Of a stretch of 64,000 nt of DNA, positions 1 through 8,983 are shown piece by piece. The notes under the pieces are model-generated. The model was not told where the DNA came from, searched no databases, and was given only the letters and a program-made list of their open reading frames with translations. The position numbers were made by a program, and so were the translations under genes. How positions within the stretch are numbered: the stretch's first letter is position 1; each line of letters starts with the position of its first letter. This stretch comes from Nitrososphaerota archaeon. Its GTDB lineage: Archaea; Thermoproteota; EX4484-205; JAAOZP01. Location: the NCBI GenBank assembly GCA_011605725.1, contig JAAOZP010000014.1, positions 62,001-126,000 of the forward strand. The letters run 5' to 3'.

Positions 1-495
1 GGCAGGTTCGCGGCTGAGGCTAACGCGATCACTGGTTATGATTATTCTTTGGAAACCGGTATTGTTGACATGAGCATTTTGAAAAAGGCTCTGCGCAAGC
101 ATGTTTCAAACAGCGTCGAAGAGGGTGTTCGCCTCCTGATAGATGGTCATTACGCGGCGGAGGTTTCTCCGGCAGAGTACGTTAACTACTGTCTTGTCCT
201 AAGATGTAGACCAGATGTTCTCTGGCGCAGGCTCCGCAGCGTCAAGGGGTATGGCGAGGAGAAGGCTAGGAGGAACGTTGAATCCGAGATTACGGACTAC
301 TGCTATCTGATGGCGAAGCTACATTTTAAACGGAAGAGAATCGTACAGCTGGACACGACCGGTGTTAGTGTTGGAAAAACCTACATCCGGTTTATGGAGT
401 GTTATAGAGAAGGCTTTAGGTGTAAGGGGGATGTGGTTGACTGGGTTGACTTCCTTCTAAGGAACCCTGGGAAAATGAGCTTTCTTTTTCGTTAA
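1..495 (+). CDS. Adenylate kinase 6/Fap7-like NTPase, partial (5' end outside window)
   Basis: The frame is open to the left edge, so the N-terminus with the P-loop is missing. The visible part matches the C-terminal half of the AK6/Fap7 family: a VLRCRPDVLWRRL strand-helix followed by a KGYGEEKARRNVESEI lid-like segment, where family members carry R-G-Y-x-x-x-K-x-x-E-N-x-x-x-E. These enzymes are small NMP kinases/ATPases acting in late small-subunit ribosome maturation. The last 80 bases overlap the 3' end of the convergent HerA-like gene. Family call is good; substrate is not visible. Confidence 0.75.
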   Translation, partial: GRFAAEANAITGYDYSLETGIVDMSILKKALRKHVSNSVEEGVRLLIDGHYAAEVSPAEYVNYCLVLRCRPDVLWRRLRSVKGYGEEKARRNVESEITDYCYLMAKLHFKRKRIVQLDTTGVSVGKTYIRFMECYREGFRCKGDVVDWVDFLLRNPGKMSFLFR

Positions 496-2275
496 GCCTT
501 ATGGTGAAAAGTACGGGTTTGGAAAAACCCTCTGCCGTTAAGAAGCCGTATCCAGGTGTCTGCTTCTTCAAAAGCTCATAGTCCCATGGGGAAAGACCCA
601 TTATGTCTGTCAGAACTCTTGACTCCTCTCCCTCGCATATCCTGTGGGCTATTTTCAGACTTGTTGACTTGACTATTTCCGGGGAGATTTGCGACGGAAA
701 CTGTGACACAAGTATAAGGCTCTCGTTAAACTTTCTCATCTCTAAGAAAAGTTTCTCAGCAATGCCAGGCGGAGAGTCGCGCCTCCTGTACGGCAAGATG
801 TTATGCGCCTCCTCAACGACAGTAAAATGACTCTTAACGCTCTTGTTTTTCACTCTGAACTCGTAGAGTTGCGCTAGGATAAAGAGTGAAACCAGCTTAC
901 GAATATCTACTTCAACAATGTCTCCCAGCTCGAAAACAACATTCCTATCTACAATGTCGCTGATCCTTACCAGCTTACTCGTGTTACAGAATATTTCCCT
1001 ACTCTGCCCAGTTATCAACGGCCTAAGTCTCCTTAGAAGCGCGAACTTTGTCTCGTTCTCGTAGAACGATTTGATGCTCCATCTCTCTAAGGTTTCTACA
1101 AGCTCGCTAAGAGAGTTTGAAGCAGGTATTCCAAGCTCTTTCTCTGCAAGTGTTTGCAGAAGCACTTCTCTAAACATGTATGATTGAGAAGGAGTGAAGC
1201 TGTATATTTGGTCGAAAATATCTGTAACTATTGCCACGTGTTCAGACAGGCTGCTGGCTTCAACCGGGTTAAGTATGTCTAAGGAGAAAGAGCCGAGTTT
1301 GAAAACAATGCCGTTAAGCTCCTCAGCCAGATGCCCATACTCGTTATGCCAGTCTAAAACCATAAAGGGATATTTAAGTTCCGCGAGCCCTCTTAAAACA
1401 TGTTTCACAGTCGTCGTCTTACCGGATCCTGTTGAACCATAGACAGCCATATGCTTCTTAAACTTGTCTACATCGAGCCTGAACGGAATGATGCTTGAAC
1501 CGTTAAAAACTATCCACCCTAGGTCAATAGTCTCCCTGTTTTCAACAGCATCAGCGGAGGGTCTGTATGAAGATGGGAGAAAACAGAGCTCGTCGTCAGG
1601 CATGTGCGGTGTAAGAAGCCTAATGGAGTTGCTTGCGTCAACCCGCTGAGCAACGGAATCATCCACCAGGATTCTTCTCAAGTATTTAACCAGCTCTTTC
1701 CCCGTCAGTCTGACGAGTTTTAACTCTGGGAAAACCGTGTTGTATACAGACCTTATTTTTTCAAAATCTGTTCTAAGCATCTTCACCGCCTCATCAACTC
1801 CTTCGCGACCTATTTCTCTGCTGACTACGAGCAGCTGGGCGAGAAGAACATCCTCGTCACGGTTTCCAGAGGGAAGCATATGGGTCACAAACGTTGTTGA
1901 GACTCCTGCTTTAAGAAGCCCGTTGACAAGGCCTCTGGTTTTTAAATAGAAATCCTCCTCTCCAGTCCCGGTTCCGCCTGTCCCCTCCTCCGGAAATATT
2001 GAAACAGCTCCAACTACGAACTCTGATGAACCCGTTTTCGCAATAAAGTAATCCTCGTTTTCTCTAAAAGAAAATTTTTCAACCAGGCTCGGCCGCTTGT
2101 AAAGCAGGAGAAGAACTATGGGGAGTAGAAGAATCGTTAAGAGTAGAGTGCTCCCTAAGGAGGGAAGGTTTGGGAAAAACTGGAGGTTTGAAAGGTTTTT
2201 CACAATGCTTATGAGTATTGTGATGATTACCGCTACATAGGTCGGGTCAGGCTTTATATTCTTGCCGTCAGCCAT
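416..2275 (-). CDS. HerA/VirB4-like membrane-anchored ATPase of the pilus locus
   Basis: This 619-aa protein begins with two hydrophobic segments (about residues 13-30 and 41-60), a roughly 200-residue middle region, then a HerA/FtsK-type ATPase core. Walker A GSTGSGKTT lies at about 280-288, VLDWHNEYG follows, and Walker B VVEEAHN comes late in the domain, typical of HerA (DUF87). HerA and VirB4 relatives are hexameric motors for DNA or substrate translocation. It is the last gene of the minus-strand pilus operon, 3 nt after the pilin. A HerA-type motor is not a usual Tad component. CedB of the crenarchaeal DNA-import system is a precedent for a membrane-linked HerA/VirB4 ATPase. DNA transport is inference. 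Confidence 0.8.
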   Translation of the reverse strand: MADGKNIKPDPTYVAVIITILISIVKNLSNLQFFPNLPSLGSTLLLTILLLPIVLLLLYKRPSLVEKFSFRENEDYFIAKTGSSEFVVGAVSIFPEEGTGGTGTGEEDFYLKTRGLVNGLLKAGVSTTFVTHMLPSGNRDEDVLLAQLLVVSREIGREGVDEAVKMLRTDFEKIRSVYNTVFPELKLVRLTGKELVKYLRRILVDDSVAQRVDASNSIRLLTPHMPDDELCFLPSSYRPSADAVENRETIDLGWIVFNGSSIIPFRLDVDKFKKHMAVYGSTGSGKTTTVKHVLRGLAELKYPFMVLDWHNEYGHLAEELNGIVFKLGSFSLDILNPVEASSLSEHVAIVTDIFDQIYSFTPSQSYMFREVLLQTLAEKELGIPASNSLSELVETLERWSIKSFYENETKFALLRRLRPLITGQSREIFCNTSKLVRISDIVDRNVVFELGDIVEVDIRKLVSLFILAQLYEFRVKNKSVKSHFTVVEEAHNILPYRRRDSPPGIAEKLFLEMRKFNESLILVSQFPSQISPEIVKSTSLKIAHRICEGEESRVLTDIMGLSPWDYELLKKQTPGYGFLTAEGFSKPVLFTIRLNEKESSFSQGSLEGSQPSQPHPPYT

Positions 2276-2278
2276 TAT

Positions 2279-2518
2279 TTATGGCAGCATCCAACCGAAT
2301 AGGCTTTCGCCCAGTTTACCCACTTCCCCTATTAGAGAGTTGAAGAAGCCCGATATGTTGTCTACGACTTGTTTCGAAACTCCGAAGACGGCTCCCAGCA
2401 TGACTAGTGCCAACACTATCAGCAGACCCTCTTCTATGAGTTGCGACCCTTTCAACTTTGTTTTCAAGATTCTTTTCAACCCACTATTAACACGAGTCTT
2501 AGATAATTTAAGCACCAA
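2279..2518 (-). CDS. Flp/Tad-like type IV pilin precursor
   Basis: A 79-aa protein with a basic leader of about 24 residues ending K-G, then SQLIEEGLLIVLALVML. This fits a prepilin-peptidase site: cleavage after Gly24, Glu at +5, then one hydrophobic helix. A short amphipathic tail ends in WMLP. It sits between the platform protein and the HerA-like ATPase with almost no spacing. The size and Glu+5 fit Flp pilins of Tad systems and archaeal class III signal peptides. It is the best candidate for the major subunit. No prepilin peptidase gene is in the window. Confidence 0.7.
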   Translation of the reverse strand: MVLKLSKTRVNSGLKRILKTKLKGSQLIEEGLLIVLALVMLGAVFGVSKQVVDNISGFFNSLIGEVGKLGESLFGWMLP

Positions 2519-2523
2519 TGATT

Positions 2524-3324
2524 CTATCCGCTGATTCGCATAGTGAAGCTGCTGATAATATTGTTGAAAACCAGGAATGATGCTGCGAAGCTTAAAGCTG
2601 AGTAAAGTATTGTTTTCACAAGTGTTCTGAATGCTAGGGAGCGGTGAACAAGTATAGAGACGCTTAATACGTATAGGAAAAGGGAAATAAGCTGGGAAAA
2701 ATCCCCCTGTAAAACGGATGTTGCTGAAAAATCTGAGAATGCGTTGAGAATGGGGGTTGCAGCAGAGAGGAAACCAATTAGAGAGGAGCTTACTACAAGC
2801 ATTATCATGGCTCTAAACCTGGCTTCTGAAAAAAGAGTCCTCCTCTCATTCTTCAAAGCCTCGTTTTCCCTAAGCAGAACCACATAGCTCTTCAGAATTT
2901 TTTTAGCAGAGACAGCATCCTTAACGAAAAGGCTTGAAGCAAGCCTGATTAAGAGCCTGCCTGTTCGGCTAAGCCCACTCGAATAGGATGTTAAAGTTTT
3001 CTCCATCGGATACCCGTTTATACTGTTGCGCATAGCTTTTTCGAAAAGACCACGGTAATCGGTTTTCAAATCTGGATCCGACAAAGTTTTGAAAACGGAA
3101 CCCTCAAGATTCAGGTTTTCAGGACTATCCGCTAACCTATCTACTAGTGTTAGGTCAACGGTCTCTGAAAGGTTTTCAGCATTGTTTTCCTTATTCCGAG
3201 TCATCATAAGCGTGTAGACTAGAAGCTGAATTGAGAATGCAACATACGGCTTAAGCTTTAAAACAGGCATTAAAAAGGCAAGTGTTCCAAGCCCTGTTAC
3301 TAGGAAAAAGCGTGTTTTACTCAA
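2524..3324 (-). CDS. T2SF/TadC-like pilus assembly membrane protein
   Basis: The 266-aa protein has two N-terminal hydrophobic segments, a cytoplasmic helical region (about 60-165) rich in charged residues, and further membrane segments near the C-terminus (about 172-195, 205-225, 235-255). This is the layout of type II secretion F/TadC inner-membrane platform proteins. Its start overlaps the previous gene by 4 nt, so the two platform proteins are translationally coupled, like TadB-TadC. Sequence identity to the family is low by eye; the call rests on topology and context. Confidence 0.6.
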   Translation of the reverse strand: MSKTRFFLVTGLGTLAFLMPVLKLKPYVAFSIQLLVYTLMMTRNKENNAENLSETVDLTLVDRLADSPENLNLEGSVFKTLSDPDLKTDYRGLFEKAMRNSINGYPMEKTLTSYSSGLSRTGRLLIRLASSLFVKDAVSAKKILKSYVVLLRENEALKNERRTLFSEARFRAMIMLVVSSSLIGFLSAATPILNAFSDFSATSVLQGDFSQLISLFLYVLSVSILVHRSLAFRTLVKTILYSALSFAASFLVFNNIISSFTMRISG

Positions 3325-3887
3325 CCCAGCAGAACACTCCTAATCCTTCCGATCTTGTCGAAGAAGATGCGGAACACTATCATGCTTATGATGAAGAATG
3401 CTGAGAAGAGTATTGTCGAGGTTTCTGGTGAAAACCCGGAGACCAATATTATTGGTATTGGAACAAGAAAAACGTAGAAGAAGAATAGTGAAACTATGGA
3501 GTTAAGTTTCAACGTGTACTCATGATACTTCATTCTGGCTTTCGACTCAAGGATTCTGAATAGCACTAACGTCTCCTCAGGATCAGCTCTCTGCTTAGAA
3601 GTGTTCTGAACCACGTGAGTAATCGCGTTCAGTAGATCCGGATATTTTCTGAGAGCCTTGTTTAACGCTTTCTGAATATCTACACCATTCAGATCTTTTT
3701 TAAGACATTGATTTAAGACTGTGTAAAACTCTTCATATTTTTTACTTGAAACGTCGCAAATAGTTCTATAAAGGTTGTTGTATGCAGATTGAGCTATTAT
3801 TATTTCAGCTACAATTGGAGTTATTACCTCGTAAGCATGCTTATCATCATCTTTAAATATTCTTCTTAAAAACGTTTTCAATGTCAC
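3321..3887 (-). CDS. T2SF/TadB-like pilus assembly membrane protein (short)
   Basis: The 188-aa protein has a helical cytoplasmic N-terminal domain (about 1-125) including a segment KDLNGVDIQKALNKALRKYPD that resembles the T2SF helical bundle, followed by two hydrophobic segments (about 127-147 and 155-173). It overlaps the secretion ATPase by 4 nt upstream and the next platform protein by 4 nt downstream. It is short for TadB and looks like one half of a split platform. Confidence 0.6.
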   Translation of the reverse strand: MTLKTFLRRIFKDDDKHAYEVITPIVAEIIIAQSAYNNLYRTICDVSSKKYEEFYTVLNQCLKKDLNGVDIQKALNKALRKYPDLLNAITHVVQNTSKQRADPEETLVLFRILESKARMKYHEYTLKLNSIVSLFFFYVFLVPIPIILVSGFSPETSTILFSAFFIISMIVFRIFFDKIGRIRSVLLG

Positions 3888-5749
3888 TTCTGAAAACCTC
3901 CTCCAGTCTTTCTAAGCATTTCCACGTGAATTTTTTGAACTAGAGCTTTAATGGTGAAATTGTCTGAAAAACGGTTCTCTAAAACCACTTTCAAGATGTC
4001 TTCATATTCTTCATAGAGGTTTTTCTCATCGATACAGCTTAAACCGGCTATTTTTCCGAAAAATCTTGAGGCTTCTAACCCAGTATAGCAGCGTAACTCG
4101 TCCGAAACAGTATGTCTCGAAAATATTTCATTAAGGCTCGAATCCTCGTCTATCAGAGCTATTTCCCAGACGAGCCGTTTAACAAAATTATTTGCCTCAA
4201 TCCTTCTCATAACTATTAGCAGATCAAGCTCTGAAACTAGGGCTCTAGGAACTCTGTAAACGTCTACAAGCCTTTTAAAGAAACCCTTGCCGGAAGCAGC
4301 GTGAGCAGTATGCATTATTCTTAAACCGGCTGAGACAGCGCGGAACATCGCTTTAACATGGCTTCCGGTTTGAACCTCTCCCAGAATCAGGTAGGAAGGA
4401 GTTCTGTGAAGAGCCTTAACTATTTCAAGCGTCTTATTATCGCTTCTTCCCCTGGTTTCGAATGGTTCAACCACATACACTATTCTATGCTGGTCGAAAA
4501 TCCTTGGGGGAAGTGTTTCAAGAGCGTCTTCAATATGCACTATGCGCCACCATGAGGGAGCAAAATAGCTTAGAAAGTTCAGGAGAGAGGTTTTCCCAGA
4601 ATTCGGCTCACCCAAGATAGAGATGTTTGCACGATTAAGAATTGCAAGGATTAGAAATGCTGCAGACTCGGGTGAAAAATACTCTGATTCTAAAAGATCC
4701 TTCAAGCGAAGCACGCCTACCATGTGTTTCCGAATGTCTAGCACGCCCTTCCCCAATGTTAGGGGAGGAATATCTATCGATACTCTTGTCAAAATCCTGT
4801 TGAACAAGATAGCGGTTTTAATCGAGGGGTTGGAGTAGTCCAGGCTCAGGCCTGATTCTCTTTTCACAAGCGACGTCAGGCTTTCAAAATCTCTTTCTTT
4901 AAACACAATATTCGTACGGAGCCTTCCGAAACGGGAATGGTCGACGTAAAGCCTTCTCCCTACATCGTCTAAGAAGAAACACTGAACATCACTGTCTTTC
5001 AATAATGGGTATATTTTCGACAAGCCTATGGAGGAGTATACTGCGTGTCTAACTATGGAGTTTGCCGGCTCCGTCTCACCTCGCGTTAACACTTTCAAAA
5101 ACCTTAAGCCGACTTTAAACCTGTAGCTAAATATGTCTTTAAGCCTACCGGTTTTAAGCATTCTCCTAGAGTAGGCTAGTCGCAGAATTTTCGAAAGCTC
5201 CTTCTCAATCCAGAAGTAATCGTCAGTCTTGAAAAAAACCCTGTAGAAACCGCTTTTAGAATCCACGCAGTACAGCAGGTGGCCAAGCACGTAGCTGTGT
5301 TCAGCCTGCCAAGTGTTGTGGAAAACCCTTTCGAATTCCTGGAAGCTGCACTCGGAAAAAAGTTTGATTGATGCGGGAAACCGTAATAATGGCTTAGAAT
5401 ATATGCTTCCATAGAATGGCCTGATGGAAAGCATTCCTCGGGAAGTATCAAGGTCAAGACTATTCTCCAGAAGTTTTTTGTAAAGCTCTTCCTTCTCCTT
5501 CTCAGCCTCCCGTGAGAGATTCTTTAATAATCCAACATATTGTTTCTGAACTTCAAGCAAACGATCATCAACATGAACCAGTATTCTCTCTGGCTTGAAA
5601 TACATGAGTTTATGCATGATATCGCAGAGAAGCCAAGGATCGGTTTTTGAGGAACCTGAATACGACAGGTATAAAGCCCTATTCCTATAATCCCAGGCCC
5701 ATTTTCTTTCAAAGCCGGTATGAAGGAAATTCTGTTCAACGCTGCTCAT
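3884..5749 (-). CDS. T2SE-type secretion/pilus ATPase (TadA/CpaF-like)
   Basis: The 621-aa protein has a family-specific N-terminal half and a GspE/CpaF ATPase core: Walker A GEPNSGKTS, an Asp box HIEDALE, Walker B ILGEVQT and a His box HTAHAAS, in the standard order. It would power pilin assembly or retraction at the cytoplasmic membrane, working with the two T2SF proteins encoded next. Its ATG overlaps the TGA of the upstream 49-aa gene (ATGA), and its own end overlaps the next start. The long divergent N-terminal half is unusual. Confidence 0.88.
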   Translation of the reverse strand: MSSVEQNFLHTGFERKWAWDYRNRALYLSYSGSSKTDPWLLCDIMHKLMYFKPERILVHVDDRLLEVQKQYVGLLKNLSREAEKEKEELYKKLLENSLDLDTSRGMLSIRPFYGSIYSKPLLRFPASIKLFSECSFQEFERVFHNTWQAEHSYVLGHLLYCVDSKSGFYRVFFKTDDYFWIEKELSKILRLAYSRRMLKTGRLKDIFSYRFKVGLRFLKVLTRGETEPANSIVRHAVYSSIGLSKIYPLLKDSDVQCFFLDDVGRRLYVDHSRFGRLRTNIVFKERDFESLTSLVKRESGLSLDYSNPSIKTAILFNRILTRVSIDIPPLTLGKGVLDIRKHMVGVLRLKDLLESEYFSPESAAFLILAILNRANISILGEPNSGKTSLLNFLSYFAPSWWRIVHIEDALETLPPRIFDQHRIVYVVEPFETRGRSDNKTLEIVKALHRTPSYLILGEVQTGSHVKAMFRAVSAGLRIMHTAHAASGKGFFKRLVDVYRVPRALVSELDLLIVMRRIEANNFVKRLVWEIALIDEDSSLNEIFSRHTVSDELRCYTGLEASRFFGKIAGLSCIDEKNLYEEYEDILKVVLENRFSDNFTIKALVQKIHVEMLRKTGGGFQK

Positions 5750-5895
5750 TTCGGAGCAACCTTTAGGAGTTCGCTTAACTCCCGATACTTCTTCTCGAGG
5801 TTTAAAATTCTAGTGTTCAACTTCCCTATATGCACCTTCAAATCCTCTATCTCCTGAAGTATTGCGTTAACCATCATGTCATCTTGGAAGATCAT
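5746..5895 (-). CDS. 49-aa coiled-coil peptide, first gene of the pilus operon
   Basis: Reading from ATG at 5895 to TGA at 5748-5746 gives a 49-residue charged peptide with leucine/isoleucine heptad spacing (ILQEIEDLKVHIGKLNTRI, then LEKKYRELSELL), so a short coiled coil is likely. Its stop shares an ATGA with the start of the secretion ATPase, which argues for real, coupled translation. A TATA-like element lies about 25-30 nt upstream. No family is recognised; a structural or adaptor role for the ATPase is inference. Confidence 0.6.
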   Translation of the reverse strand: MIFQDDMMVNAILQEIEDLKVHIGKLNTRILNLEKKYRELSELLKVAPK

Positions 5896-5917
5896 CTTCA
5901 AACCAGAATGGTGAGAA

Positions 5918-5928
5918 ACCTATTTATT
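5918..5928 (-). promoter_or_regulatory. TATA box of the minus-strand pilus operon
   Basis: On the minus strand GAATAAATAGG is centred about 28 nt before the ATG at 5895, the spacing expected for a nearly leaderless archaeal transcript. It is one side of the divergent control region of the pilus locus. Confidence 0.45.
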
Positions 5929-5948
5929 CACCAATACTGACCCGTTGG

Positions 5949-5958
5949 CGGTTATAAG
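5949..5958 (+). promoter_or_regulatory. TATA-like box for the plus-strand pilus genes
   Basis: GGTTATAAGG on the plus strand predicts a start near 5978, about 50 nt before the ATG at 6030. A 30-codon reading frame (TTG 5945 to TAA 6037) overlaps it and the next gene start; I could not decide whether that frame is translated. Confidence 0.35.
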
Positions 5959-6029
5959 GCTTAGACACTGGTATGATTCTGGGTTGAAAAAGCACATGGA
6001 AGCCGTATGGCTTAAGAGGATGATCATCC

Positions 6030-6173
6030 ATGAGTAACCTGCTTGAGAAAACCCTGGTAATACTGCTTTCCATAATCCTCTTTGGACTGGGTTTAGAATA
6101 CTTATCGGAGCGAGTAATACCTATGATTAAGCAGATTTGTGAAAGCGTGGCTAAGCTGCTTGCCGCAGGCTAG
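6030..6173 (+). CDS. 47-aa single-pass membrane peptide of the pilus locus
   Basis: ATG at 6030 to TAG at 6171-6173. The peptide has a short polar start, one hydrophobic helix (about residues 8-22, LVILLSIILFGLGLE) and an amphipathic tail, much like a mature Flp pilin without a leader. It is followed after 11 nt by the next gene of the plus operon. A minor pilin or an assembly peptide are the options; no family is recognised. Confidence 0.5.
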   Translation: MSNLLEKTLVILLSIILFGLGLEYLSERVIPMIKQICESVAKLLAAG

Positions 6174-6184
6174 GGTGAAACAGT

Positions 6185-6564
6185 TTGAACGAAATCCTTG
6201 AGGAGCATTTGAAGGACGCTCTCTGGATAACTTTGACGCTCACAGTAAGCTTTACACTTCTTCGTGCTGCGAACACTGTTATAACGGTTTTTTCAACAAA
6301 GGTTTTTAACAGTATCCTGTTTTTGATAGGGAAATATGCTGATCTCTCAGCGGAATACGGAGGAGAGTTCACCATATCTATGCCGGGAAACTCCTACTTG
6401 ATTATTCAATCCTGCTTAAGAATAATGAGTATTCTATTGTGATTCATGGGATTCGAGTCTTCTACGGGACTTGGAAATACAGGTTTAACAGCGTGTCTTT
6501 AGAGCCAGGTGGAACATACTCTTTGAAGAAAACAGAGAATGGATTTGTTTTAACCAAACGATGA
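6185..6564 (+). CDS. Small TadE/minor-pilin-like protein, reading frame broken by -1 shift
   Basis: The TTG-started frame encodes an N-terminal amphipathic/hydrophobic segment and runs to a stop at 6440-6442. The -1 frame, open from 6343, continues with protein-like sequence (NNEYSIVIHGIRVFYGTW, then SVSLEPGGTYSL) to TGA at 6562-6564, which overlaps the ATG of the next gene as ATGA. That coupling shows the second frame holds the true 3' end. The shift lies between about 6343 and 6442. It may be an assembly error, a real mutation or programmed frameshifting; I see no classical slippery heptamer. Confidence 0.55.
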
Positions 6565-6692
6565 GCGACAAGCTTCTAGATTTCCTAGAATCATCATTCC
6601 TGATTTTTCTGCTAGTCTTAGAACTAGCGTTGGCTGTTCTTCTCACCTTAAGCAATGTTTCCACTCTAACTCGGCTTGCTGAGCAAGTGTGA
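6561..6692 (+). CDS. 43-aa single-pass membrane peptide of the pilus locus
   Basis: ATG at 6561 overlaps the stop of the upstream gene by 4 nt and the frame ends at TGA 6690-6692. Residues about 12-30 form one hydrophobic helix (SFLIFLLVLELALAVLL) and the tail is short and polar. It lies 6 nt before the next gene. No family is recognised; context suggests a small pilus subunit or assembly factor. Confidence 0.5.
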   Translation: MSDKLLDFLESSFLIFLLVLELALAVLLTLSNVSTLTRLAEQV

Positions 6693-6698
6693 GTAGGG

Positions 6699-7082
6699 AT
6701 GCAGTTTTTAGAGGGAACCATCGCAATCGTCCTGAGCACTCTCCTATTAATACCGATAATAACTGTCTCGCAAAGTATCAGAAACACGTTTGAAAGAATA
6801 GAAGCAATAGGAATAGATTTGGTTTTGGAGAGAAGCCTTGCAGGAATCCCTCAGCAGAACCTAGCTGACTCTGAAACCCTGCTCAGCGAAGTTGCCAGGA
6901 TCCTGGATTCTAACGGGCTTGAGTGGAGTAGAATAGAGCTTCTGAGCAGGAAGAATGGAAGAACAGTGGTGGAGGGCAAACAGGTCTCAAAAAATCTTGA
7001 TGAACAACATACTAGGCTAATTAGAATAGTCAGAGTAAGTAGTGAAGACATTGTGTGCATAGTGGTGAGTTTTAGAAAATGA
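6699..7082 (+). CDS. Minor-pilin-like protein with N-terminal membrane helix (127 aa)
   Basis: The protein starts with a hydrophobic helix (residues about 7-26, TIAIVLSTLLLIPIITV) followed directly by a soluble domain. This is the pilin-like or TadE/F-like layout, but no G|xxxxE cleavage site is clear. Its end overlaps the next gene by 4 nt. Partner of the following 155-aa protein; an exact family is not recognised. Confidence 0.55.
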   Translation: MQFLEGTIAIVLSTLLLIPIITVSQSIRNTFERIEAIGIDLVLERSLAGIPQQNLADSETLLSEVARILDSNGLEWSRIELLSRKNGRTVVEGKQVSKNLDEQHTRLIRIVRVSSEDIVCIVVSFRK

Positions 7083-7546
7083 TTAAAACATGGATGATGC
7101 CTATAGTTGCCTCGACAGCCATCATGGTTTTGCTTTTGACAGTGAACCTAATGGTCCAGTCTGGAAGCATTCTTCTAGAAGGCTTTTTGAAGCAGAGAGA
7201 AAAACTAGTTTTAGCCGACTCTCTAGTAAACGATGTTTTCAACAGTGTGGAGGACATTGCAGAAACAAGCATGAGTTCTTCACAGGGTAATTTCTCTGAG
7301 TTTAGGAAAATCCTAGTGGATAGGATAGAACGCTTCAAATCTGAGAATCTTTATGGGGAATTTTTCAAAGAGTGTGGGATTATTGCGCAGTTTAACTACA
7401 CCATTGAAACCCGTGAGGAGGAGCTTTTAATAGAGGTTACGTGCAGGATTCGCGTGAGTGATCCTGAAGGCTTATTCGAATACGAACGTGTTTACAAGAC
7501 GGTTAAACGGCAGGGTTCTGCTCTGTATGATGGTTCAACGGGTTGA
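7079..7546 (+). CDS. Minor-pilin-like protein with N-terminal membrane helix (155 aa)
   Basis: Residues about 7-28 are hydrophobic (MPIVASTAIMVLLLTVNLMV) and the rest is a soluble domain with alternating hydrophobic strands near the C-terminus (LLIEVTCRIRV). The layout matches the previous protein and TadE/F-like minor pilins. It is the last gene of the plus-strand pilus operon and overlaps the 3' end of the convergent TFB gene by 55 nt. Confidence 0.55.
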   Translation: MIKTWMMPIVASTAIMVLLLTVNLMVQSGSILLEGFLKQREKLVLADSLVNDVFNSVEDIAETSMSSSQGNFSEFRKILVDRIERFKSENLYGEFFKECGIIAQFNYTIETREEELLIEVTCRIRVSDPEGLFEYERVYKTVKRQGSALYDGSTG

Positions 7547-8436
7547 GATGTTTTCCCGAAGAACTCTTCATATGTTTCTCTAACGCTGTACTCTGCATAC
7601 CCCACGTATCCAGCCAGCTCCCTCTGAGTCACAGGGTTCTTAATCTTTAACATGGCCGAAGCCTCCTTTGATGCTGCATAAATTGCTGCTGCTAAACATA
7701 TCATGGGGTTTTTACCATGAAAATAATAGTGTTTAGATTTTAAATCATTAAAGAGCCTGATGGACATCGGCCTAAGAATGTTTAGAAAAGTTTCTCTTTC
7801 AGCAAGAGATTGAAGCTTACGGTTATTTCTTATTATCAGAGATATTATCTCGTTGATCGTTTTAACTGCATCGTATTTCGCTTCTGCAATCCCGATTTCC
7901 CTCGCAATAGAGATCACGTTGAACAGGTCTCTCGGCCGGATTTTAAAACCTATGCTACGCAGGTACGCCTGTATCTTCTTATAGTGCGGAGCAATGTTTA
8001 AACTACAGGATCTTGCTGTGCTAACTACGGAGTATGCTGCAACCGCCGCCAAACTAATCTTTCTATTTTTAGAGCTGCGCAGCAATGTTAAACCAATACT
8101 GAGAGAAAACAGTCTTACTGAATGCCCAAGATGGAAATTGCTACAGACTTTGTCTATTATCCATTTCAGCTCATTCTCCTTCCTAGTAGCAGAGTAGAAA
8201 ATGCTCTTCTGAAGTCTAGAAACATTGTTTTTAAAACCGTGCTCCGCCATGAGGCTTCCGTAGCAGGAGTCTCCGTGAGCCGTGTGATCCTGATCATAGG
8301 ATGCGACATACTTATCTATGAAGTCAACCACTAAGCCGCACCTGCTGCAAACAAGCTCGTTATCTGAGTTAACAAGTGGCGAATTGCAATCTGGGCATTT
8401 GAGGAGAACAGGTGGTTGAACTGTTTCCTGTTCCAT
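7492..8436 (-). CDS. tfb: Transcription initiation factor B (TFB)
   Basis: A 314-aa TFIIB-family protein: N-terminal zinc ribbon (CPDC...CSRC) and two cyclin-like repeats. It recruits RNA polymerase to TBP-bound promoters. I chose ATG at 8436 instead of the GTG at 8475: the extra 13 codons encode hydrophobic residues and coincide with a TATA-like CTATTTTTATT about 27 nt before the ATG, implying a leaderless mRNA. Family membership is clear. The B-reader region is divergent (SCYGSLMAEHGF), so this may be a specialised TFB paralogue. It converges on the pilus genes. Confidence 0.88.
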   Translation of the reverse strand: MEQETVQPPVLLKCPDCNSPLVNSDNELVCSRCGLVVDFIDKYVASYDQDHTAHGDSCYGSLMAEHGFKNNVSRLQKSIFYSATRKENELKWIIDKVCSNFHLGHSVRLFSLSIGLTLLRSSKNRKISLAAVAAYSVVSTARSCSLNIAPHYKKIQAYLRSIGFKIRPRDLFNVISIAREIGIAEAKYDAVKTINEIISLIIRNNRKLQSLAERETFLNILRPMSIRLFNDLKSKHYYFHGKNPMICLAAAIYAASKEASAMLKIKNPVTQRELAGYVGYAEYSVRETYEEFFGKTSQPVEPSYRAEPCRLTVL

Positions 8437-8557
8437 TTCTAAAAGTACCATTAGCAGAACAATAAAAATAGCCACGAAAAAAAGCTATGTTTTAGGATAA
8501 GCTCCTTACTTCAGAAAGTATTAAAAACAGGGAGTGTACTGTAAAAGTGATGTTGAA

Positions 8558-8983
8558 ATGATGAGAACAGGGTTCACGACAGAGGTTAATCGTTTAATAG
8601 GTAAGAAGGTTGCAGTGGTTACTCAAAGCGGTGAGGAGCTTCAGGGTGTTTTAGCCTCGCTGGATGTTGATACTTTTTCAGTGATTTTGAACGATGTTGA
8701 GTTGAAAGGAGGCAGGAAGATTCCTAAGGTGATACTCAACGGGAGTGACGTTAGGAGAATAGAGGTGAGGGCAGCAATCCTGGATTTAAGGAAACTTGCT
8801 GAGAGGATAGAGAGAGTCTTTCCGAAAATGGTTCAGTATAACGAGGAGGCTGGTGTCATAATAGTGATGAACAGGATAAGGGTTACTGAGAATGGAGTTA
8901 TCGAAGGAAGTGGGCTGGCAGCTGAAAAAGTGAGTGAAATATATAACGATTTTATTAAAGAGAGCTCCGCGGAAAAAGAATAA
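8558..8983 (+). CDS. Sm/Lsm-like archaeal protein (SmAP3-type)
   Basis: The N-terminal 70 residues form an Sm fold pattern (GKKVAVVTQSGEELQGVLASLD, then a VILN...VRRIEV strand pair). A C-terminal domain of about 70 residues follows, as in two-domain SmAP3 proteins. Sm-like proteins form RNA-binding rings. I chose ATG 8558 because GTGAT, complementary to the 16S 3' end, lies about 7 nt upstream; the GTG at 8534 has no such support. Confidence 0.65.
   Translation: MMRTGFTTEVNRLIGKKVAVVTQSGEELQGVLASLDVDTFSVILNDVELKGGRKIPKVILNGSDVRRIEVRAAILDLRKLAERIERVFPKMVQYNEEAGVIIVMNRIRVTENGVIEGSGLAAEKVSEIYNDFIKESSAEKE

Follow-up and report, generated by a model that had tools for sequence, protein, structure and literature searches.

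Saccharolobus cannot import DNA without the ATPase CedD (PMC11868833). First described in 2025, CedD has been reported from Crenarchaeota only, and in Sulfolobales its gene lies two genes from tfb3, the gene of the DNA-damage TFB (SiRe_1715 is CedD and SiRe_1717 is tfb3); CedD is also found near tfb3 in L070/L071. The other described systems closest to the locus reported here are the Ups pili and Ced system of Sulfolobales, the type IV pilus 'subclade 4D' of Pyrobaculum and Thermoproteus, and transjugation in Thermus.

Composition of the locus

The locus, from a Brockarchaeota genome, consists of a pilus operon and a divergent operon. The pilus operon, on the minus strand, comprises the genes for a T2SE ATPase, a pair of T2SF-like proteins, a prepilin with a class III signal (Flp-like) and a HerA/VirB4-type ATPase with two transmembrane (TM) helices. 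Every gene in the initial annotation, which had been made from the sequence alone, was found where it had been placed, with T2SE, pilin and HerA in one operon; its list lacked the 51-amino-acid gene at 5746-5901 and the divergent TFB gene at 7492-8475. Coordinates below are those of the window, the whole stretch of 64,000 nucleotides that was analysed.

1..495, + strand: Fap7-like P-loop kinase (PF13238, 2e-9), flanking gene convergent with HerA; conserved locus boundary
416..2275, - strand: HerA/VirB4-superfamily ATPase, CedD-like, two N-terminal TM helices (DUF87, 8e-19; NF053655, 9e-54)
2279..2518, - strand: Flp-like class III prepilin (KG|SQLIEEGLL...), conserved prepilin motif
2524..3324, - strand: T2SF-like membrane protein 2, TadC-like topology; assigned from position and TM pattern, without a profile match
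3321..3887, - strand: T2SF-like membrane protein 1; homologue L113 matches PF00482
3884..5749, - strand: T2SE pilus-assembly ATPase of a distinct clade (PF00437, 2.9e-10; FlaI model NF058587, 1e-29)
5746..5901, - strand: 51-amino-acid coiled-coil-like protein, first gene of the operon; kept in all Brockarchaeota loci
5902..6029, no strand: divergent promoter region with two TTGGYGRWTAWA boxes, at 5923-5934(-) and 5945-5956(+), kept in six Brockarchaeota loci
6030..6173, + strand: s1, conserved 47-amino-acid one-TM protein
6185..6564, + strand: s2, one-TM pilin-like protein, split here by a frameshift (85 + 41 amino acids)
6561..6692, + strand: s4, conserved 43-amino-acid one-TM protein
6699..7082, + strand: s5, conserved one-TM minor-pilin-like protein
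7079..7546, + strand: s6, conserved one-TM minor-pilin-like protein
7492..8475, - strand: divergent TFB, Zn ribbon and cyclin folds (PF08271, 1.5e-6; PF00382, 1.5e-3)
8534..8983, + strand: Sm-like (LSm) protein, second conserved locus boundary (family g9, at the boundary in most relatives)

We take the kinase at 1..495 to be Fap7, and the family g9 protein is presumably Sm. In almost every relative, the Fap7-like gene adjoins HerA or Flp. Because six further Brockarchaeota loci keep the gene order, as do many lineages at a greater distance, the arrangement is not due to chance.

Pilus components

The profile matches of the T2SE identify it as the assembly ATPase of an archaeal type IV pilus. 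A tree that includes L165-L167 places it in a distinct archaeal type IV pilus clade together with Pyrobaculum 'subclade 4D' (support 100/100), so the earlier label 'Tad-like' was wrong in detail; as expected for subclade 4D, the TFB gene (7492-8475) lies in the same locus. Neither T2SF-like protein was recognised directly by Pfam. The first is confirmed as a platform protein through its relative L113, which matches PF00482 at 1.7e-5, exactly the gathering score. Comparing profiles with those of two Caldisphaera T2SFs yielded no match, and the second of the two small T2SF proteins proposed initially is assigned from position and topology.

The Flp-like prepilin (2279-2518) has no Pfam match and is 54–63% identical to L010/L011. 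Its identification as a class III pilin is upheld by the motif [KR][GA]xxL[IVL]EE[GA][LM]L, which is kept in about 25 relatives or lineages. A prepilin peptidase of family A24 is encoded inside the operon of L056 (PF01478, 1.3e-6), and the genome of the window has two prepilin peptidases, both outside the locus.

The divergent operon, 6030-7546(+), encodes five small proteins, each with one N-terminal TM helix. The count of five, as first given, holds because relatives carry 6185-6442 and 6439-6564 as a single 126-amino-acid open reading frame, which a one-base frameshift has split here. These proteins could be the substrates of a T2SS/T4SS-like device that secretes small proteins instead of moving DNA. 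We consider such a device very improbable, as there are no cargo-like genes and the best-matching ATPase family is a DNA-import factor.

Relationship of the HerA-like ATPase to CedD

The HerA protein (416-2275) matches the CedD model NF053655 with 183 bits (9e-54), compared with 53 bits for repair HerA; the CedD match covers the ATPase domain only and lies far below the curated cut-off of 600 bits. In trees, the pilus-linked HerAs form one clade (100/100) that is separate from CedB and from the HerA–NurA group (100/97 for the latter). The locus HerA thus belongs to a separate clade with good support, and CedD is the closest known relative of that clade. One clade of CedD and the pilus-linked HerAs is not rejected by the single-gene trees (p-AU 0.36), which do not establish it either.

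The N-terminal region of the locus HerA matches the CedD N terminus weakly (hhalign probability 65, E 6e-5) and the repair-HerA N terminus not at all (probability 0.04). The best match of the predicted structure is VirB4 (4ag5, Z 26.8), and full-length VirB4 TrwK also aligns across the N-terminal region of the model, at high rmsd; the list of structural matches is compatible with a HerA-like fold for this region as well. Because the model is of only middling quality (pLDDT 63.5), statements about the N-terminal region are weak.

The DUF87 domain and the matches to HerA models could also point to a repair HerA that happens to lie beside an unrelated pilus, but the trees refute this explanation, whose probability we regard as practically nil. 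HerA–NurA proteins stand apart from the locus HerA, which differs in its N-terminal region and carries two TM helices, and the genome encodes a HerA of its own besides (L013, which scores 127 bits with the HerA model).

The initial annotation had drawn a parallel with CedB. The link to the Ced system is closer than it had guessed, but the relative is CedD. The CedB model NF041017 matches all four CedD-only genomes (4/4), and at 1e-15 it has no match in the 11 pilus-HerA genomes, so that CedB, expected of a Ced system, was not found there. Several other candidates were rejected: L093 is not CedB, the CedB of its genome being L097; NF041016 is a model of ArnR and not of CedA; and the HerA paralogues of about 700 amino acids (L057, L078, L079 and L084) lie outside pilus loci. 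Among the genes recognised in the locus, none was identified as a channel of the CedA/TedA or ComEC type, which speaks against a role of the locus in DNA uptake.

Conservation and a shared chromosomal slot

The arrangement Tgt-Sm-[TFB-T2SE-T2SF-T2SF-Flp-HerA]-Fap7-thermosome is repeated across roughly 15 lineages of family level within the phylum, and the compact order T2SE-(T2SF)-Flp-HerA is seen in 13 or more. In relatives, HerA has stayed next to the pilus genes: it is on the same contig as T2SE in 37 of the 59 sampled genomes with the locus T2SE clade, and its placement is consistent with contig breaks in a further four. In the other 18 of the 59, which come from eight families that have kept the pilus, HerA is missing or unlinked; the pilus can therefore work without HerA, and these eight cases of loss or unlinking speak against a tight coupling of the two.

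Pilus and HerA are each found without the other, and HerA lies on other contigs in f52, f57 and f66, which would suit two independent functions in one neighbourhood, namely a TFB-controlled adhesive type IV pilus and a CedD-like DNA motor. We judge this distinctly unlikely in view of the compact order kept across so many families and the single clade of pilus-linked HerAs.

The slot between Sm and Fap7/thermosome also has reduced contents. In several lineages of crenarchaea CedD is its sole occupant (L072, L074, L076, L077, L080 and L081); in L110, L115 and L125 it contains the pilus and TFB without HerA, and in Pyrobaculum-like genomes only TFB-T2SE-T2SF, the last a short 4-TM protein. The common slot, Sm-[HerA]-Fap7/thermosome, makes the locus HerA and crenarchaeal CedD positional orthologues, and the evolutionary linkage is well supported. 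The reduced clusters kept at this spot in crenarchaea suggest an old DNA-uptake machine with CedD among its remnants.

Alternatively, the HerA/VirB4-like ATPase may serve pilus biogenesis and not DNA, either by extracting pilins from the membrane, as VirB4 does, or by powering retraction in a system without PilT, with the filament being adhesive or motile. HerA shares an operon with the pilin, their reading frames almost touching; VirB4 is its best structural match; and PilT is absent from archaea (PMC4858521). However, its closest relative, CedD, survives in the slot without any pilus genes and is required for DNA import, not export (PMC11868833), and L110, L115 and L125 have the pilus without HerA. 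We therefore regard a role in pilus biogenesis as rather unlikely.

The locus TFB

Besides the TFB at 7492-8475 the genome has a single TFB, a canonical one, and a TFB gene lies near T2SE across lineages. TFB3 aligns with the locus TFB over the Zn ribbon only, and sequence therefore does not establish orthology. We infer that TFB3 may descend from the locus TFB and, by analogy, that the locus may be under DNA-damage control.

Proposed mechanism and implications

We propose that the locus represents a pilus-linked apparatus for DNA uptake (DNA exchange) that is ancestral in Thermoproteota, has a TFB of its own and has eroded in different ways from lineage to lineage, and we place this proposal midway between doubt and acceptance. 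To the observed gene content, conservation, clade memberships and common chromosomal slot it adds DNA as the presumed substrate and import as the presumed direction; whether the locus imports DNA is likewise a roughly even call. The processed Flp-like pilin would be polymerised by T2SE and the T2SF platform, and the small pilin-like proteins of the divergent operon would prime or tip the filament. DNA would then be drawn through the membrane by the membrane-anchored, CedD-like hexameric ATPase. The dedicated TFB would turn on both operons, possibly after DNA damage, like TFB3 in Sulfolobales. Crenarchaeal CedD would be the positional descendant of the locus HerA, retained after the pilus genes were lost.

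More tentatively, and with a chance that we put somewhat short of even, an all-in-one DNA-uptake machine made up of a type IV pilus, a VirB4/CedD motor and a TFB may have occupied a fixed spot in the ancestor of Thermoproteota. If CedD, TFB3 and 4D are separate remnants of this one machine, then pilus, DNA import and TFB switch were once a single locus. Of the initial interpretation, the HerA neighbourhood and the Ced link survive, whereas 'Tad-like' and CedB do not.

The locus would supply an origin for CedD and a possible reason for the adjacency of cedD and tfb3 in Sulfolobales, and the puzzling pilin-less type IV pilus '4D' of Pyrobaculum would gain a place. It also predicts DNA uptake across many uncultured Thermoproteota and names candidate genes.

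Comparison with known systems

CedD of Sulfolobales (SiRe_1715; NF053655) shares with the locus HerA a HerA/VirB4-type ATPase domain, two N-terminal TM helices, a weakly matching N-terminal region and, in several crenarchaea, the Sm–Fap7/thermosome slot. The locus HerA differs in that it fits the CedD model in the ATPase domain only (183 of 600 bits) and is in an operon with the pilus, without CedB. The 'subclade 4D' pili of Pyrobaculum and Thermoproteus (Makarova 2016, PMC4858521) have in common with the locus the T2SE clade (100/100), an adjacent TFB, a short 4-TM protein and the same slot (Sm-...-thermosome), but they lack pilins, the second T2SF and HerA, and the T2SE of the window is longer at its C terminus.

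According to what PMC11868833 reports of Thermus transjugation, type IV pili and the HerA-like DNA motor TdtA take part in DNA exchange there, although that system is bacterial and its HerA-like proteins act in export. In the Ups pili and Ced system of Sulfolobales, a type IV pilus and a CedD-type motor serve one process under the control of a TFB paralogue (PMC11868833, PMC9905601). There, in contrast to the locus described here, the parts are spread over several loci, the CedB/CedD motor pair works with CedA channels, and the sampled T2SEs fall outside the locus T2SE clade.

A conserved pilus locus with a HerA-like ATPase

The locus lies on contig C11 of a Brockarchaeota-like genome, whose closest named relatives are Brockarchaeota MAGs, and comprises two divergent operons and a TFB gene:

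5901 to 416, minus strand: pilus/HerA operon encoding a 51-aa protein, T2SE, T2SF-like 1, T2SF-like 2, a Flp-like prepilin and a HerA-like ATPase
6030-7546, divergent operon: five small proteins, each with one N-terminal hydrophobic segment
7492-8475, divergent TFB: next after the small-protein operon and convergent with it

Neighbouring genes of the pilus/HerA operon overlap or almost abut. The small-protein operon has a one-base frameshift in its second gene (6185-6564), possibly an assembly error or a young pseudogene, which splits the 126-aa ORF of relatives into two pieces.

We searched 398 genomes of the phylum with a HerA profile and, in the same sample, for the T2SE (59 genomes at a threshold of 1e-45), and fetched the neighbourhoods. 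A single order recurs: Tgt, Sm / TFB, T2SE, T2SF, T2SF, Flp, HerA / Fap7-like kinase, thermosome. By our own count from the neighbourhood tables, HerA is close to T2SE on the same contig in 37/59 genomes; the two are separated in a manner compatible with contig breaks in 4/59, and HerA is missing or located elsewhere in 18/59 (families f27, f33, f47, f51, f52, f57, f60 and f66). The combination of pilus genes and HerA proposed in the initial annotation is real: it forms one operon, and the arrangement recurs across the phylum. TFB adjoins or is near T2SE in every fetched stretch that reaches far enough.

Two genomes of one lineage have the HerA ORF in two pieces (L056 8481-10315 and L058 8733-10558), possibly through decay, an intervening sequence or recoding. 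Separately, a HerA/CedD-like paralogue of 685-743 aa, preceded by a multi-TM protein (L079 6605-9674; L057 9958-12867), recurs in Brockarchaeota and genome G193, away from pilus loci.

Pilus components and promoter

The T2SE matches PF00437 (2.9e-10) and the FlaI model (1e-29). T2SF-1 has no direct profile match in the window, and its homologue in L113 matches PF00482 (1.7e-5); T2SF-2 is a candidate T2SF-like protein, judged from position and topology. The prepilin cleavage motif of the Flp-like pilin is kept in ~25 relatives. An A24 peptidase occurs inside the operon of L056 (1.3e-6), and on contig C7 of the window's genome two A24 copies adjoin another T2SE; these C7 peptidases may process the Flp-like pilin. 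This C7 region (~227.6-232.8 kb; stretches L001, L102 and L103) is a second, ordinary archaeal T4P locus.

The association of TFB with archaeal T4P is already known in general (PMC4858521). The window's genome encodes one canonical TFB in addition to the locus TFB. Two TTGGYGRWTAWA boxes in opposite orientation, kept in Brockarchaeota, lie in the divergent promoter (5923-5956), 22 bp apart and overlapping the presumed TATA boxes of both operons; the locus TFB may recognise them. Exact matches number only four in the whole genome, but because the pattern was defined from the very promoter sites with which it was then counted, and a reversed control likewise gives four, this count is a lead rather than a test.

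Identity of the HerA-like ATPase

The ATPase matches DUF87 (8e-19), and its best curated family is CedD (NF053655), the HerA/VirB4-type ATPase of Sulfolobales DNA import (9e-54). This match covers the ATPase domain only and, at 183 bits, falls short of the cut-off of 600; the repair HerA model scores 53 bits. Its N-terminal region weakly matches that of CedD (prob 65, E 6e-5) and has no match to the repair-HerA N-terminus (prob 0.04). Sequence motifs, among them E[VIL]RK and a KNT..KI.H stretch, are common to locus HerA and CedD and different in repair HerA. The structure closest to the AlphaFold model (pLDDT 63.5) is VirB4 (Z 26.8, rmsd 3.4, 328 residues), with SsoHerA at Z 22.9; full-length VirB4 chains can be aligned from residue 63 onward, at high rmsd. 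A VirB4-like motor could act in pilus assembly or retraction, which is the main alternative to a role in DNA uptake.

Pilus-linked HerAs group with three unlinked relatives in a single clade (100/100), outside which fall HerA-NurA (100/97) and CedB (100/100), in agreement with the earlier view that this HerA is not the repair helicase. The tree leaves the placement of CedD lineages between these three groups without resolution; a joint clade of CedD and pilus-linked HerA is neither rejected nor demonstrated (p-AU 0.36). The model of CedB (NF041017), the partner motor to which the initial annotation had pointed instead of CedD, has matches in 0/11 genomes carrying the pilus-HerA locus and in 4/4 genomes with CedD only; of these four matches, one exceeds the cut-off and three do not reach it.

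Reduced loci and comparison with known systems

In several crenarchaeal lineages, the slot between Sm and the kinase/thermosome holds HerA (here CedD) alone (L072, L074, L076, L077, L080 and L081; the kinase flank is missing in L074, L076, L080 and L081). L110, L115 and L125 have pilus and TFB genes in the slot, without HerA. Three f13 genomes, which we take to be Pyrobaculum, have the order Sm, RPB8-like gene, 157-aa TFB, 342-aa T2SE with cysteines at its N-terminus, 4-TM protein, thermosome. These slot genes are the T4P 'subclade 4D' of Makarova et al. 2016, who termed it the most unusual since it lacks pilins and has TFIIB (PMC4858521). The subclade 4D T2SE and those of the locus form one clade against 16 other archaeal T2SEs (100/100), so the previous 'Tad-like' label is inaccurate in detail. 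Because crenarchaea hold remnants of both halves, loss from a complete ancestral locus would be a simpler origin for the reduced slots than insertion.

In the reading that fits best, the locus encodes a DNA-uptake machine linked to a pilus, with a TFB of its own and with CedD as a descendant; we infer DNA as the substrate, import as the direction and control of the locus by damage. In the literature searched, which misses many journals, we found no paper that ties a type IV pilus locus to HerA/CedD. DNA import in Saccharolobus requires CedD (PMC11868833). In Sulfolobales, the region is rearranged, with the order CedD, thermosome, TFB3, ORF, HisS, PsmB, Sm, Tgt; the S. islandicus genes are SiRe_1715 for CedD and SiRe_1717 for Tfb3.
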